Assembly: GCA_029981855.1 (NCBI GenBank)
Contig: JARRCS010000010.1
Span: 1-64,000, forward strand
DNA: 64,000 nt
Source of the DNA: Halanaerobiales bacterium
GTDB taxonomy: Bacteria; Bacillota; Halanaerobiia; Halanaerobiales; DTU029
Reading direction: 5' to 3'
This document shows positions 7,485 through 12,524 of this stretch, piece by piece. Positions within the stretch are counted from its first letter, which is position 1. Each line of letters begins with the position of its first letter. The position numbers and the translations under genes are program-made. Below the pieces are notes generated by a model. It did no database searches and had not been told where the DNA came from. It saw only the letters and a program-made list of their open reading frames with translations.

Positions 7485-8030
7485 ATGAAGATCTTAATAC
7501 CGCTGGCAGATGGGCTGGAGGAGATTGAGGCGATCACCAATATTGATGTTTTAAGGAGGGCCGGGATCAAGGTAATCACTGCCGGGTTAAATGACCTGGA
7601 GGTTACTGGAGCCCATGATATTGTTATTAAGGCCGATAGATTAATTGATGAGGTCAGGGCAGAGGAGTTTGACGGGATAATCTTACCCGGTGGGATGCCC
7701 GGCTCTACTAATTTGCGGGATAATGATAAGGTTATAAAACTGGTGCAAAAATTAAATACCGATGGCAAACTGGTAGCTGCTATCTGTGCCGCCCCGATTG
7801 CCCTGGAAAAGGCAGGTGTTATCAGAAACCGTAAGGCTACCAGTTATCCCGGTTTTGACAGGGAAATGGTCTCCTGTGACTATTTAGAGGAGAGGGTAGT
7901 TGTGGACGGAAATCTGATTACCGGCCGCGGCCCCGGGGTGGCCCTGGAGTTTGCAATTACAGTTGTCCAATATCTCCTCGGGGAAGAAAAGGCCGCTGAG
8001 TTAAAAGAGGGGATGTTGGCTAACTTTTAG
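7485..8030 (+). CDS. DJ-1/PfpI family protein
   Basis: 181 aa, soluble class I glutamine amidotransferase-like fold. The nucleophile-elbow Cys101 is in AAICAAP, the partner Glu15 in DGLEEIEA, and RGPGVALEF near residue 146 matches the DJ-1 C-terminal motif. Members (YajL, DJ-1, ThiJ) act in oxidative-stress protection, glyoxal handling or chaperone functions; which applies here is open. A very strong G-rich ribosome site (GGGGGGG) lies before ATG 7485. It forms its own unit and ends before a terminator at 8101. Confidence 0.9.
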   Translation: MKILIPLADGLEEIEAITNIDVLRRAGIKVITAGLNDLEVTGAHDIVIKADRLIDEVRAEEFDGIILPGGMPGSTNLRDNDKVIKLVQKLNTDGKLVAAICAAPIALEKAGVIRNRKATSYPGFDREMVSCDYLEERVVVDGNLITGRGPGVALEFAITVVQYLLGEEKAAELKEGMLANF

Positions 8031-8100
8031 AGAGGAGTATATAACCCAACAAAGGAGTTAAAAGGTGCTGGAACACCAACAAAATTTAAGGATTTCAGCA

Positions 8101-8130
8101 AACTACAGGTTGTCCTGCCTGTAGTTTTTT
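8101..8130 (+). terminator. Rho-independent terminator after DJ-1 gene
   Basis: AACTACAGG pairs with CCTGTAGTT over an 8-nt loop, followed by a T-run. Confidence 0.88.
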
Positions 8131-8147
8131 CGATTCCGCTCAAAAAA

Positions 8148-8176
8148 TTGCAATCATATTCTTTTATTGTTATAAT
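8148..8176 (+). promoter_or_regulatory. SigA-type promoter for the ABC-class ATPase gene
   Basis: TTGCAA, 17-bp spacer, TATAAT. It lies 57 bp before the ATG at 8233, directly after the DJ-1 terminator. Confidence 0.85.
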
Positions 8177-8232
8177 TTATTTGGTGAAGATGATCATAAT
8201 ATAATTGTATCTGTATACAGGAGGGTTCAACG

Positions 8233-9966
8233 ATGCAGAACAAGGAGCAGCTTCGATCTACTTTAAAGAGAATTGATGGAAGGGGTTATAAGGCCTACAA
8301 AGATCTGCAAAATAACTGGTATGATTTTGGTAGTTTCTATATCGGTATACCATATGTACAGGGTGACCCCTATGCTAGCCCATCCAGTGTTTTTCTAAAG
8401 ATTGAGCAGAAGAGTACCGGTTTTCCCGAATGGCTATTAGAGAATAAGATTCGCCGGCTGGCGGTAGAGGATTATCTGACCAGGGTAACTGATAGATTGA
8501 TCAGGAAGTATACCAGTGGTAATAGAGGATCAGGTAAGAGCGGACAGGTTTACATAGCCAGAACCGGCCAGGAGGTAATTGAGCGTACCTCGGTTGAGTT
8601 TAATTCTGATTTGATTGAAATCCGTTTAAGTGTTGGTCTGCCGGCCAGGGGGCGCAGGGTATTGGGTTATCAGGCCCAGGAGATCTTCTTTGAGGAACTG
8701 CCCAGGGTTGCCGAAGACTGCCTTTTTTACCGGAGCCATAATTCCGAGGAACTAGAGAGACATGTCCGTACAGTAGAGGACCAGCATCTTCTGCGTGGTA
8801 TGCTATCGGAAAGGAGACTGGTTGCCTTTATAGGTAATAATTCGATCTTGCCCCGGAGAAGCGGGGTTGATGACCGTCCCCTTACTGGAGAGAAAGTTAT
8901 TCCCTTTATCTCACCGGAAGAATATGAAGTTGAATTTGAACTCCCCTATTATGGCAAGATCAGGGGTATGGGAATCAAAGAAGGGGTAACCCTGATCGTT
9001 GGAGGTGGATATCACGGTAAATCTACCCTGCTGAATGCCATTGAGAGGGGGGTATATAATCATATTCCCGGTGATGGCAGGGAATATGTTGTTACCAGGG
9101 AAGACGCCTTTAAAATCAGGGCTGAAGATGGCAGAAGGATTGAAAAGGTTGATATCAGCCCCTTTATTAATAACCTGCCCCAGGGTGAAGAAACCACTGA
9201 TTTCAGTACAGAAAATGCCAGCGGCAGTACTTCACAGGCCGCCAATATCATTGAAGCCCTGGAACTAGGGGCAGGCTTACTGCTGATTGATGAAGATACC
9301 TGTGCCACCAATTTTATGATCAGGGATGCCAGAATGCAGCAGTTAGTCTCCGCTGATAAGGAACCGATTACCCCCTTTATCGATAAGGTAAGGGCTCTAT
9401 ATAAAGATTACGGGGTATCCACAATTATTGTTGTCGGTGGTGCCGGTGACTATTTTGATGTAGCAGACAATGTTATTATGATGGATGAATACCGGCCCAG
9501 GGCCGTTACCGATAAAGTACGGGAGATTGCTGCCCGTATCCCGAACCAGAGGATTATGGAAGATGCCAGAATCTTTGGTAAGATCTGCAAGCGGTACCCT
9601 GACCCCGATAGTATCAACCCTAGAAGGGGAAGAAAGGTAAAGGTTAAGGCTCGAGGCAAGGATACCATCCAGTTCGGCCGGGAGGACATTGATTTAAGCA
9701 ATTTGGAACAGCTTCTAAACCGGGAACAGACTAAGACCATCGGTGATATATTGGTCTACGCTTTAAGGGAGAATATTATCAAAGGTGAGAGATCCTTAAA
9801 GGAAGTTCTTGATTTAATCTTTGCCCGGCTGGAGAAGGAGGGTTTAAAGACCATCTCTCCCTTTAGTTATCCCGAGGGGGATTATGTAAAACCTCGCCCC
9901 TTTGAGGTTGGGGCAGCTATCAACCGTTTGCGAAGCTTAAAAATTAAGGAGATAGTCTGGGAGTAA
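8233..9966 (+). CDS. Predicted ATPase of the ABC class (COG3044 type)
   Basis: 577 aa, soluble. A family-specific N-terminal domain (1-235) is followed by an ABC-like ATPase core: Walker A GGGYHGKST (257-265), an unusual signature ENASGSTSQ (327-335) and Walker B LLLIDED (about 349-354), then a 120-residue basic C-terminal region. This combination defines the single-polypeptide ABC-class ATPases, which have no membrane partner and no established function. The start ATG 8233 follows the ribosome site CAGGAGGG. It has its own promoter and no operon partners. Family assignment is strong, biological role unknown. Confidence 0.88.
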   Translation: MQNKEQLRSTLKRIDGRGYKAYKDLQNNWYDFGSFYIGIPYVQGDPYASPSSVFLKIEQKSTGFPEWLLENKIRRLAVEDYLTRVTDRLIRKYTSGNRGSGKSGQVYIARTGQEVIERTSVEFNSDLIEIRLSVGLPARGRRVLGYQAQEIFFEELPRVAEDCLFYRSHNSEELERHVRTVEDQHLLRGMLSERRLVAFIGNNSILPRRSGVDDRPLTGEKVIPFISPEEYEVEFELPYYGKIRGMGIKEGVTLIVGGGYHGKSTLLNAIERGVYNHIPGDGREYVVTREDAFKIRAEDGRRIEKVDISPFINNLPQGEETTDFSTENASGSTSQAANIIEALELGAGLLLIDEDTCATNFMIRDARMQQLVSADKEPITPFIDKVRALYKDYGVSTIIVVGGAGDYFDVADNVIMMDEYRPRAVTDKVREIAARIPNQRIMEDARIFGKICKRYPDPDSINPRRGRKVKVKARGKDTIQFGREDIDLSNLEQLLNREQTKTIGDILVYALRENIIKGERSLKEVLDLIFARLEKEGLKTISPFSYPEGDYVKPRPFEVGAAINRLRSLKIKEIVWE

Positions 9967-10040: not shown

Positions 10041-10613
10041 GTGTTAAGAGACTTAATTTTAAAAAACAGAAGCTATAGACGGTTCTATCAGGATTTTGCG
10101 GTGGAGAAGGAGGTCTTGCGGGAATTGATTGATCTTGCCCGTTTATCGGCATCGGCCTCCAATAAACAACCGTTAAAGTACATTATTTCCAATGAGCCTG
10201 AAACCAATCAGAAAATTTTCTCCAGTTTAACCTGGGCCGGTTATTTAAAGGACTGGGACGGTCCGGCCGAAGGTGAAAGACCATCTGCCTACATAATTAT
10301 TCTTGGTGATCAAGAGATCAGTACCAACTACCTGGCCGACCCCGGCATTGCCTGTCAGAGTATTCTCCTGGGGGCAACCGAGAGGGGTCTGGGGGGGTGC
10401 ATCTTTGGTTCGGTTAAGCGAGAAGAACTGAGGAAGGCTTTAGCTATTCCGGAAAGATATGAAATTCTGTACGTTTTAGCAATTGGTAAACCTAAAGAGG
10501 AGGTAAAGCTGGAGACAGTAGGGGATGATGGCGATATCAGATATTGGCGTGATAAGAAGGGTACCCACCATGTCCCTAAACGCCCGCTGGAGGAGATAAT
10601 CCTGGAAAGATAA
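10041..10613 (+). CDS. Nitroreductase family protein
   Basis: 190 aa, FMN-dependent nitroreductase-like oxidoreductase. Start GTG 10041 after GGGAGAGG. N-terminal NRSYRRF is the usual FMN-phosphate Arg motif, followed by ARLSASASNKQPLKYIIS (the SxxNxQPW-like substrate loop). The C-terminal half has the GGCIFGSVKREELRKAL and YVLAIGKPKEE motifs. Probably an NAD(P)H-dependent reductase; physiological substrate unknown. Followed by the long non-coding DnaA-box region. Confidence 0.88.
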   Translation: MLRDLILKNRSYRRFYQDFAVEKEVLRELIDLARLSASASNKQPLKYIISNEPETNQKIFSSLTWAGYLKDWDGPAEGERPSAYIIILGDQEISTNYLADPGIACQSILLGATERGLGGCIFGSVKREELRKALAIPERYEILYVLAIGKPKEEVKLETVGDDGDIRYWRDKKGTHHVPKRPLEEIILER

Positions 10614-10632: not shown

Positions 10633-10914
10633 TTATCCACAATTTACTAATCTTATCCACATTGATGTAATAGATATCCACAGCCGCTATTAAATCTTCG
10701 CAAAATAAACATTTTGCGAAGATTTAATAGTGCGAATATTTGTCAGTAAAGATCAGTAAAGAAATGAAATAAAAATAATTTGTTTATCATTTGCAGAACA
10801 AATTAGATATTATGTAATATTTTGCATTAATATTATGTAATAAAATAAATTCTTCTTGTGGATAACTTTCTATCAAAAGTGAGGTTACTTAAGAAATCAT
10901 AACAGTTATCCACA
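10633..10914. promoter_or_regulatory. DnaA-box cluster in AT-rich non-coding region
   Basis: Exact DnaA boxes TTATCCACA lie at 10633-10641, 10653-10661 and 10906-10914 on the plus strand and at 10857-10865 on the minus strand. A one-mismatch box (ATATCCACA) lies at 10674-10682. Between them are a perfect 20-bp hairpin (10687-10730), a direct repeat CAGTAAAGA, and an AT-rich tract (10771-10855) holding TATTATGTAATA twice. No ORF fits the 10614-11043 gap. Four exact 9-mers in under 300 bp is far above chance. It could be an origin-like element, a DnaA-titrating or DnaA-regulated site; dnaA itself is not in the window. Confidence 0.75.
10687..10730. repeat. Perfect 20-bp inverted repeat with 4-nt loop
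   Basis: CTATTAAATCTTCGCAAAAT and its exact reverse complement flank the loop AAAC. No T-run follows on either strand, so it does not look like an intrinsic terminator. It sits among the DnaA boxes. Confidence 0.9.
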
Positions 10915-10938: not shown

Positions 10939-11003
10939 AACTGCAAATAGATGTTTCCAATGCTGCAAATTTCCAAACATCTCTCCGACATCTATTTACA
11001 ATT
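10939..11003. repeat. Dispersed palindromic repeat, copy B
   Basis: Begins AACTGCAAATAGATGTTT and ends with the complementary arm around GACATCTATTTACAATT; a longer variant of copy A with a wider centre. It lies downstream of the minus-strand LysM gene and next to the DnaA-box cluster. Confidence 0.82.
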
Positions 11004-11043
11004 GTTTAAGGTAAATATGAAATGGGAAAAACCCCTGATTGAC

Positions 11044-11364
11044 TCAGGAGTTTAGTTGAGGGATTTTGATTACCTGTCCTGGCTGTAAAATGACATTCTC
11101 TAAACCATTAACCTTTTTGATCTGATTGATTATCTTACGTGGATCATCATTTATTTGATTGTAATTTTTGGCTATACTCCAGAGAGTATCACCTTTTTCA
11201 ACCCTGACCTCGAGATACCTTACCGGTTTTCCGCCTAGAGATGAAAAATCGTAGAAAAATATGATCAGCGTTGCAATTAATAACACGGATATCGTTATCT
11301 TTAGATAATCTCTTTTAAACCTACTTTCCCGGTGGTAATGATTTTTAACTGCCAGATTATACAT
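11044..11364 (-). CDS. yneA: LysM membrane protein, YneA-like SOS cell-division inhibitor
   Basis: 106 aa. An N-terminal basic stretch leads into one membrane helix (about 23-41, ITISVLLIATLIIFFYDF) and then an extracellular LysM domain (about 52-103: VEKGDTLWSIAKNYN ... ILQPGQVIKIPQ). This is the architecture of Bacillus YneA, which halts division during the SOS response. Position supports it: it is divergent from lexA, as in Bacillus. Its promoter (TTGACA, 18 bp, TATAAT on the minus strand) carries a LexA-box-like palindrome just downstream of the -10. LysM binds peptidoglycan. The SOS role is inferred from architecture, neighbour and operator together. Confidence 0.8.
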   Translation of the reverse strand: MYNLAVKNHYHRESRFKRDYLKITISVLLIATLIIFFYDFSSLGGKPVRYLEVRVEKGDTLWSIAKNYNQINDDPRKIINQIKKVNGLENVILQPGQVIKIPQLNS

Positions 11365-11398
11365 AAGAACTCCTCCTTTAAACCTATGTATGCCTGTG

Positions 11399-11449
11399 TA
11401 GTACGTGTGTTCTAATGATATTATAACAGAACAGTAGTTTCCCTGTCAA
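11399..11449 (-). promoter_or_regulatory. yneA-like promoter with LexA (SOS) box
   Basis: On the minus strand TTGACA (11444-11449), an 18-bp spacer and TATAAT (11420-11425). At 11399-11414 lies TAGTACGTGTGTTCTA, which on the minus strand reads TAGAACACACGTACTA. It is one mismatch from a perfect palindrome and close to the Firmicute SOS core GAAC-N4-GTTC. It would overlap the start of transcription, so bound LexA would block it. Confidence 0.72.
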
Positions 11450-11479
11450 GCATTTTTTTGAAAAAATTAAAACTGTTGT

Positions 11480-11508
11480 TTGCCAATTTTCGAATTATGT
11501 GTTATAAT
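11480..11508 (+). promoter_or_regulatory. Promoter P1 upstream of lexA
   Basis: TTGCCA, 17-bp spacer, TATAAT. It would give a leader of nearly 390 nt before lexA. A ribosome site AAGGAGG at about 11541 is followed by a tiny TTG-started ORF of about ten codons (MLNINLCKSI), possibly a leader peptide. Confidence 0.65.
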
Positions 11509-11628
11509 AATTATGTACAGGTAGTTAAAATAATTCCTTATAAGGAGGTTATACTTGCTTAATATAAATTTATGTAAATCTATATGAACCAGGGTGAATC
11601 TAGACATATAAATTTAGGATTTTCAAAA

Positions 11629-11649
11629 ATTTGTAAGATTATTACAAAT
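11629..11649. promoter_or_regulatory. Operator-like palindrome in lexA leader
   Basis: ATTTGTAA-GATTA-TTACAAAT, perfect 8-bp arms, ends four bases before a second promoter. It does not match the SOS box, so another regulator is possible. Confidence 0.5.
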
Positions 11650-11653
11650 CCCC

Positions 11654-11682
11654 TTTACATTCACGAATAAATGTATTATATT
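11654..11682 (+). promoter_or_regulatory. Promoter P2 upstream of lexA
   Basis: TTTACA, 17-bp spacer, TATATT. Transcripts would run about 200 nt before lexA and pass a short ORF at 11732-11803 (23 codons, MEIFNKLIKK start) with only a weak ribosome site. Confidence 0.5.
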
Positions 11683-11897
11683 TAACGAACATTTTTTTGG
11701 TTTGATTACTTTGTAAAGGGCCAGGTAATTAAATGGAAATCTTTAATAAATTAATTAAAAAGAAAGGTGGTGAAAGTCCTGGTTGGTGGTCGAAAACAGG
11801 ATAGTATTGCTAGAGTTAACAGCTTGATTATAAATTAATCCTGTGAAGACTTACGACTATGCTTAAGTTTGCATAGGTTTTAAAAACCAGGAGTAAT

Positions 11898-12524
11898 ATG
11901 GAAGAATTAACTGAAAGACAGAAATCTATTCTGGGGTTTATTCAAAAGGAGATTAAGGAAAAGGGATACCCCCCCTCTGTTAGGGAGATCGGAGAGGCAG
12001 TTGGTTTAAAATCGCCGGCATCTGTTCACAGCCATTTAAAAACCTTGGAAGAACTTAATTATATAAGAAGAGACCCTTCGAAACCGAGGGCCATTGAAGT
12101 ACTGTATAACCAGGATGGCACGGAAAATATCAAAAAAGAAATGGTACATATTCCTTTAGTAGGGAGGGTTACCGCCGGCGAACCAATTCTGGCTGAAGAG
12201 AATATCGAAGATTACTTTCCGGTACCGCTGGATTATATCAGCAGTACTGCTAAAGAACTATTTATGTTAGAGGTTAAAGGTGACAGTATGATCAATGCGG
12301 GGATTTTTGATGGTGATTATGTTATAGCGCAAAAACAGAATTATGCTTATAATAAGGATATAGTTATAGCTCTGACTGAAGAAGGTGCTACTGTTAAGCG
12401 CTTTTTTAAGGAGAAGGATTATTTCCGTCTCCAACCCGAAAATCCTACCATGGAGCCGATAATAGTGCCTGATGTACATATTCTCGGTAAGGTTATTGGT
12501 CTATACCGTAAATTTATTAGTTAA
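11898..12524 (+). CDS. lexA: LexA SOS repressor
   Basis: 208 aa. Represses DNA-damage genes and cleaves itself when stimulated by RecA filaments. The N-terminal winged HTH spans about 1-65 ([24 protein letters not shown] recognition region). The autocleavage site Ala93-Gly94 is in VTAGEP, and the catalytic dyad is Ser130 (GDSM) and Lys167 (ATVKRFF). Start ATG 11898 follows CCAGGAG. Divergent from the yneA-like gene. Its 3' end overlaps the convergent uracil-DNA glycosylase gene by 4 bp. A long leader (11365-11897) with two promoter-like sites precedes it, but I see no perfect SOS box for lexA itself. Confidence 0.97.

Follow-up and report, generated by a model that had tools for sequence, protein, structure and literature searches.

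The 28-bp sequence at positions 10695–10722 of the window (the whole 64-kb stretch of DNA analysed, from the source genome G000) is almost certainly the dif site of its chromosome, judging from its sequence, copy number and position. It is adjoined by an array of DnaA boxes which, from their sequence conservation, are very probably under selection as DnaA sites. Together they may form a composite DnaA–dif element at the replication terminus, a reading to which we give slightly less than an even chance. The placement of a chromosomal dif beside the sites of a well-studied protein is unusual and, if the reading is correct, would link the initiator of replication to the place where replication ends. 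The features of the locus are as follows.

10041–10613, + strand: nitroreductase-family gene, the left neighbour, with its 3′ end towards the site
10633–10641, + strand: DnaA box 1, TTATCCACA, 64 bp 5′ of the dif TTCG (in G001 at −63)
10653–10661, + strand: DnaA box 2, TTATCCACA, 20 bp past box 1 (G001, −43; G012, −42)
10674–10682, + strand: DnaA box 3, ATATCCACA, 21 bp past box 2 and 12 bp short of the 28-bp dif
10695–10722, no strand assigned: predicted dif, 28 bp, TCTTCGCAAAATAAACATTTTGCGAAGA, with the symmetric structure TCTTCGCAAAA-TAAACA-TTTTGCGAAGA, the core of an inverted repeat
10800–10849, no strand assigned: AT-rich tract with a 90% A+T peak and TATTATGTAATA at 10808–10819 and 10831–10842
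10857–10865, − strand: DnaA box 4, an inverted exact TTATCCACA facing dif from the right (+160)
10906–10914, + strand: DnaA box 5, TTATCCACA, found in G000 only
11044–11364, − strand: LysM protein gene, the right neighbour, with its 3′ end towards the site (YneA-like by position and domain)
11898–12524, + strand: lexA, which adjoins dif in most of the class

The dif site and its probable recombinase

A perfect inverted repeat, with arms of 20 bp (10687–10706 and 10711–10730) and a 4-bp loop, is located amid the boxes and was overlooked in the first-pass annotation. Its single-strand fold has a z score of −9.2, and its extended outer symmetry is also seen in several relatives. The core of the repeat has the 11-6-11 layout of dif, with arms symmetric at 11 of 11 positions, and is identical to the Bacillus subtilis dif at 17 of 28 positions (shuffle P = 0.00045). 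Full arm symmetry is found in 32 of 42 dif sites of the class, the corresponding value being 6/11 for the dif sites of both B. subtilis and Escherichia coli. When the complete locus was used as a DNA query against relatives, matches to the inverted repeat were obtained in distant families. The pattern TTCG[CT]AAAA-N6-TTTT[AG]CGAA is present in essentially a single copy, as is typical of dif, in 48 of the 59 Halanaerobiia genomes examined, and reversed control patterns gave almost no matches; the few genomes with extra matches carry less regular ones. The same palindrome is widespread among other Bacillota, and no classical dif was detected among the class members sampled. A transcription terminator was also considered for the inverted repeat and rejected: no T-run follows it and no terminator was called, and its conserved core and its location at the terminus agree with dif instead. 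The matches from an Rfam search of the 9.9–12.6-kb region all fell below the gathering score and are attributed to chance; two of them were microRNA families on the hairpin.

In four closed genomes, in which dnaA is located at about position 1, the dif pattern is found at 0.48–0.54 of the chromosome, i.e. opposite oriC. GC skew, sampled along the genomes, changes sign at dif in the contig of the window, between 2.02 and 2.20 Mb in G001 (dif at 2.093 Mb), and between 1.22 and 1.27 Mb in G012 (dif at 1.237 Mb). The gene orientation reported in the first-pass annotation was reproduced: genes to the left lie on the + strand and those to the right mostly on the − strand, converging on the site, as is normally seen at a replication terminus. 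The multi-box oriC of G000, the location of which that annotation had asked for, is on contig C21, where seven exact boxes (9429–9673) lie just upstream of dnaA (8015–9361, − strand) and a further two are found downstream of it.

A single Xer-like protein is encoded in G000, alongside one phage-type integrase and a fragment. The gene is located at C28:205283–206200, on a contig other than that of dif. The best PDB sequence matches of the protein are XerD, XerA, and an XerC-like protein, and it falls below the curated cut-offs of the XerC, XerD, XerA, and XerS models; by sequence it is the probable recombinase of this dif. An orthologue (45–72% identity) was identified in 15 of 16 genomes tested and was not found in the fragmented assembly of G010. 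The gene lies within ~250 bp of dif in G040, G041, G042, and G048 and at ~9–50 kb in most others. As in G000, a single match was obtained in G006, G015, and G040; a second Xer-like protein (33–34% identity) is encoded in G041 and G048. The dif adjoining the Xer gene of G048, CCTTCGTTAAATATATGTTTAACGAAGG, is symmetric but altered in sequence, as would be expected if Xer and dif co-evolve. These features suggest a single-recombinase dif system with a symmetric site, like those of XerS or XerH. The Halanaerobiia Xer protein and its symmetric dif are thus a candidate undescribed single-recombinase system for dimer resolution; none is described for this class in the portions of the literature covered by our search.

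Conservation and range of the DnaA-box array

The box count of the first-pass annotation was confirmed by sequence search: four exact copies of TTATCCACA and one of ATATCCACA lie inside 282 bp, and no further exact TTATCCACA is present in the 64-kb window. The genome contains 53 exact copies in its 2.59 Mb, at which density at least four exact boxes per ~300 bp have a probability of ~6e-11 per place and ~5e-7 genome-wide, excluding chance clustering. The locus has several consensus boxes in a short intergenic stretch, as do DnaA-box clusters outside oriC. Boxes 1–3 share a strand, are spaced by about two turns of the helix, and are all aimed at dif. The AT tract with repeats between the boxes is likewise as annotated, with its 90% peak and two TATTATGTAATA copies, and its sequence is not kept in relatives. 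Elsewhere in G000, a DnaA-box pair is located at C10:68839–68859, just 3′ of an endonuclease-III-like gene; a hisZ-like gene lies ~1 kb downstream of the pair (both genes named by eye).

Conservation, raised as a check in the first-pass annotation, extends to four genomes of four genera: exact boxes directly left of dif are also present in G001, G012, and G010. They are always in the same orientation, aimed at dif, and the LysM–lexA side lies to the right in every case. The three boxes of G000 are identical to those of G001 (27/27), whereas the two inter-box spacers match at only 9 of 23 positions and are equal in length. Box 3 is ATATCCACA in G001 as well (−22), and its equivalent in G012 (−22) is TTATCCACA. 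The distances of the left boxes from dif are 64/44/23 bp in G000, 63/43/22 bp in G001, 42/22 bp in G012, and 73/32 bp in G010, i.e. they agree within 1–2 bp in the first three genomes and are off by about one helical turn (~10 bp) in the fourth. Helical phase coherence at 10.5 bp is R = 0.89 (P ~0.045 with three independent groups), a test that is weak after allowing for shared ancestry, so that phasing of the boxes is suggestive only. The inverted right-hand box lies at +160 in G000, +175 in G001, and +153 in G012, a drift indicating that indels do occur where distance is unconstrained; G010 lacks the middle and right-hand boxes. In the closed genomes of G001 and G012, no close pair of exact boxes other than that at dif occurs outside oriC.

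The LysM gene is also the right neighbour in G001, G010, and G012 (in the last past a resolvase gene). The left neighbour differs in all four genomes, encoding a nitroreductase, an ABC-class ATPase, an uncharacterised protein, or an isopropylmalate-dehydrogenase-like protein (labelled by eye from sequence and gene neighbours). Moreover, G005–G007 have the nitroreductase gene beside dif without exact boxes, and G015 has the LysM gene beside dif without exact boxes; the boxes thus follow dif and not a gene. The LysM/YneA-like gene and lexA are divergent (11044–12524), and the pair is found beside dif in most families of the class. The gap between them contains a strong promoter (11449–11420) and a LexA-box-like match near 11401 with one mismatch. 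A dispersed intergenic repeat of ~50 bp is present at 10967–11016, with about nine other matches in G000 (77–92% identity).

Boxed dif loci are only 4 of ~45 examined in the class. G008 has one lone exact box ~300 bp from dif, and weak boxes near other dif sites of the class occur at about chance density. Exact boxes within 300 bp were found at only one of 119 palindromic dif sites in GTDB, that of G010, and at none of 30 classical Bacillota dif loci. A box 5–35 bp upstream of dif was detected only in G000 among 399 genomes of the phylum, a sample that did not include G001 and G010 and in which the degenerate dif of G012 would escape the pattern. In a DnaA + LexA + Xer tree with low deep support, G012 is placed at the base of the order and G010 beside Halanaerobium, with G000 and G001 in one family; the four boxed genomes do not form a clade. 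The array is therefore patchy and dispensable. Ancestral boxes followed by several losses and several independent gains are both possible. No pairing of DnaA boxes with dif was found in the portions of the literature covered by our search, and to that extent the combination is new, each component being already known.

Possible roles of the array

In the composite element that we propose, the dif core would be recombined for the resolution of chromosome dimers, most likely by the single Xer protein encoded elsewhere. DnaA would bind the left array cooperatively to form a nucleoprotein complex that abuts the Xer–dif complex. By this means DnaA availability, or a new replication cycle, may influence dimer resolution or terminus handling. 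The near-constant left distance points to a physical unit of DnaA array and dif and hence to an effect of DnaA on Xer–dif or terminus handling; for a direct effect on dif or Xer the chances, as read from sequence, seem to us almost balanced, leaning slightly against. One point against the composite element is that the noncoding gap between the convergent genes (~430 bp) leaves few other places for boxes, so that their closeness to dif could partly follow from scarce noncoding room. More tentatively, DnaA could take part in dimer resolution in some Halanaerobiales, in a structural or a regulatory capacity, the ordered array at its fixed distance from a symmetric, single-recombinase dif coupling the initiator directly to terminus processing. 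The connection between completion of one round of replication and initiation of the following one is a long-standing question, for which a conserved pairing of DnaA boxes and dif would offer a concrete, testable locus.

Alternatively, the array may be a DnaA control site at the terminus, a datA- or DARS-like reservoir whose boxes bind or remodel DnaA and whose late duplication marks the end of the round, with dif as a mere neighbour. We regard this as almost as probable as the composite element, though less likely than not. Box clusters outside oriC reduce free DnaA in B. subtilis (PMC5295017, PMC13220808), a precedent for such a reservoir. Halanaerobium, which has no boxes at dif, keeps another box pair 150–220 kb from oriC in two closed genomes, consistent with one reservoir differently placed. 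This pair, TTATCCACA-N22-TTATCCACA with ACAAAACAGGTGTTT between the boxes, is located at C1:218587–218626 in G014 and C1:2460280–2460319 in G023 and is also found in other Halanaerobium genomes. However, timing requires only a place at the terminus and not a near-constant distance from dif or a 12-bp gap, the four exact boxes are a small share of the 53 in the genome, and the B. subtilis clusters are called oriC-proximal in the title of Okumura et al. (2012). The first-pass annotation had suggested a DnaA-titration or regulatory locus; this survives in modified form, the boxes being conserved together with dif and not with a promoter, as both flanking genes end here. An action of DnaA on dif is slightly favoured over the reservoir, and the data do not separate the two.

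It is improbable that DnaA bound on both sides of dif blocks or traps replication forks so that they meet at dif. Inward-facing boxes do lie on both sides of dif in three genomes, and RTP, the fork-trap protein of Bacillus, was not found in G000, G010, or G012. On the other hand, G001 has a weak RTP-like match, the dif sites of most relatives lack boxes, and only one of the eight genomes searched for RTP gave a score above the cut-off. To our knowledge, DnaA is not established as a polar fork barrier. A protein above the RTP family cut-off is encoded at C1:1162722–1163045 in G048, ~92 kb from dif; in the eight genomes, RTP-like matches are otherwise weak or absent.

We consider regulation of a neighbouring gene by DnaA at a promoter here to be very improbable. 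In B. subtilis, DnaA acts as a transcription factor (PMC4447404), and the lexA/LysM neighbours are present in all four boxed genomes, but the flanking genes end at the site in all four, leaving the boxes downstream of both, and the left gene changes. Good promoter matches occur at 11420–11508, between the LysM gene and lexA, and not at the boxes. Similarly slight is the likelihood of a chance cluster, which the box density excludes, or of a relic of a dif-integrated mobile element with its own DnaA-dependent origin. For such a relic, Xer-exploiting elements (IMEX) are known to integrate at dif (PMC5357621), a resolvase gene separates dif from the LysM gene in G012, and the distribution of the boxes is patchy; however, no phage or plasmid genes lie beside the boxes in G000, G001, or G010, and the boxes were kept and their distances held while the spacers diverged.

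The origin role raised in the first-pass annotation is rejected, and a second or dormant replication origin, to which the box cluster and AT-rich tract could be attributed, has practically no probability, as the site is not next to dnaA/dnaN, the genes converge on it, dif lies in its middle, and oriC is elsewhere. A simple search found no DnaA-trio-like (TAG/TAA) array here, nor any in the true oriC. Of the GC-skew behaviour at issue in that annotation, a switch at the site was observed in the sampled skew, but the cumulative skew has a maximum there and the minimum of an origin was not seen.

Relationship to known systems

The dif site resembles those of the XerCD–dif system of E. coli and the CodV/RipX–dif system of B. 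subtilis in its length of 28 bp, 11-6-11 layout, single copy, location at the terminus and skew switch, and in that an Xer-family tyrosine recombinase is encoded in the genome. It differs from them in having arms symmetric at 11/11 rather than 6/11 positions, apparently one Xer protein instead of two, and an adjoining DnaA array. The apparent use of one recombinase, a roughly symmetric site, and the linkage of the gene in several genomes are shared with XerS–difSL, XerH–difH, and XerA–dif, whereas the site sequence differs and the protein is below the XerC, XerD, XerA, and XerS cut-offs.

As in the DnaA-box clusters of B. subtilis, several consensus boxes lie in an intergenic region outside oriC; unlike the initiation-controlling clusters of that species, which are called oriC-proximal, the present locus abuts dif at the terminus. 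It is similar to datA, DARS1, and DARS2 of E. coli in being noncoding with a few ordered DnaA boxes, by which those loci control DnaA. The comparison is by general layout: datA and DARS are defined by a core box arrangement with IHF or Fis sites and by their effect on the nucleotide state of DnaA, whereas the present locus lies at a different position and has three boxes in one direction. The plasmid sites cer and psi likewise combine an Xer site with a neighbouring array of protein sites at a fixed distance. Their partners on plasmids are PepA, ArgR or ArcA, whereas in the present case the candidate sites are DnaA boxes and the locus is on the chromosome.
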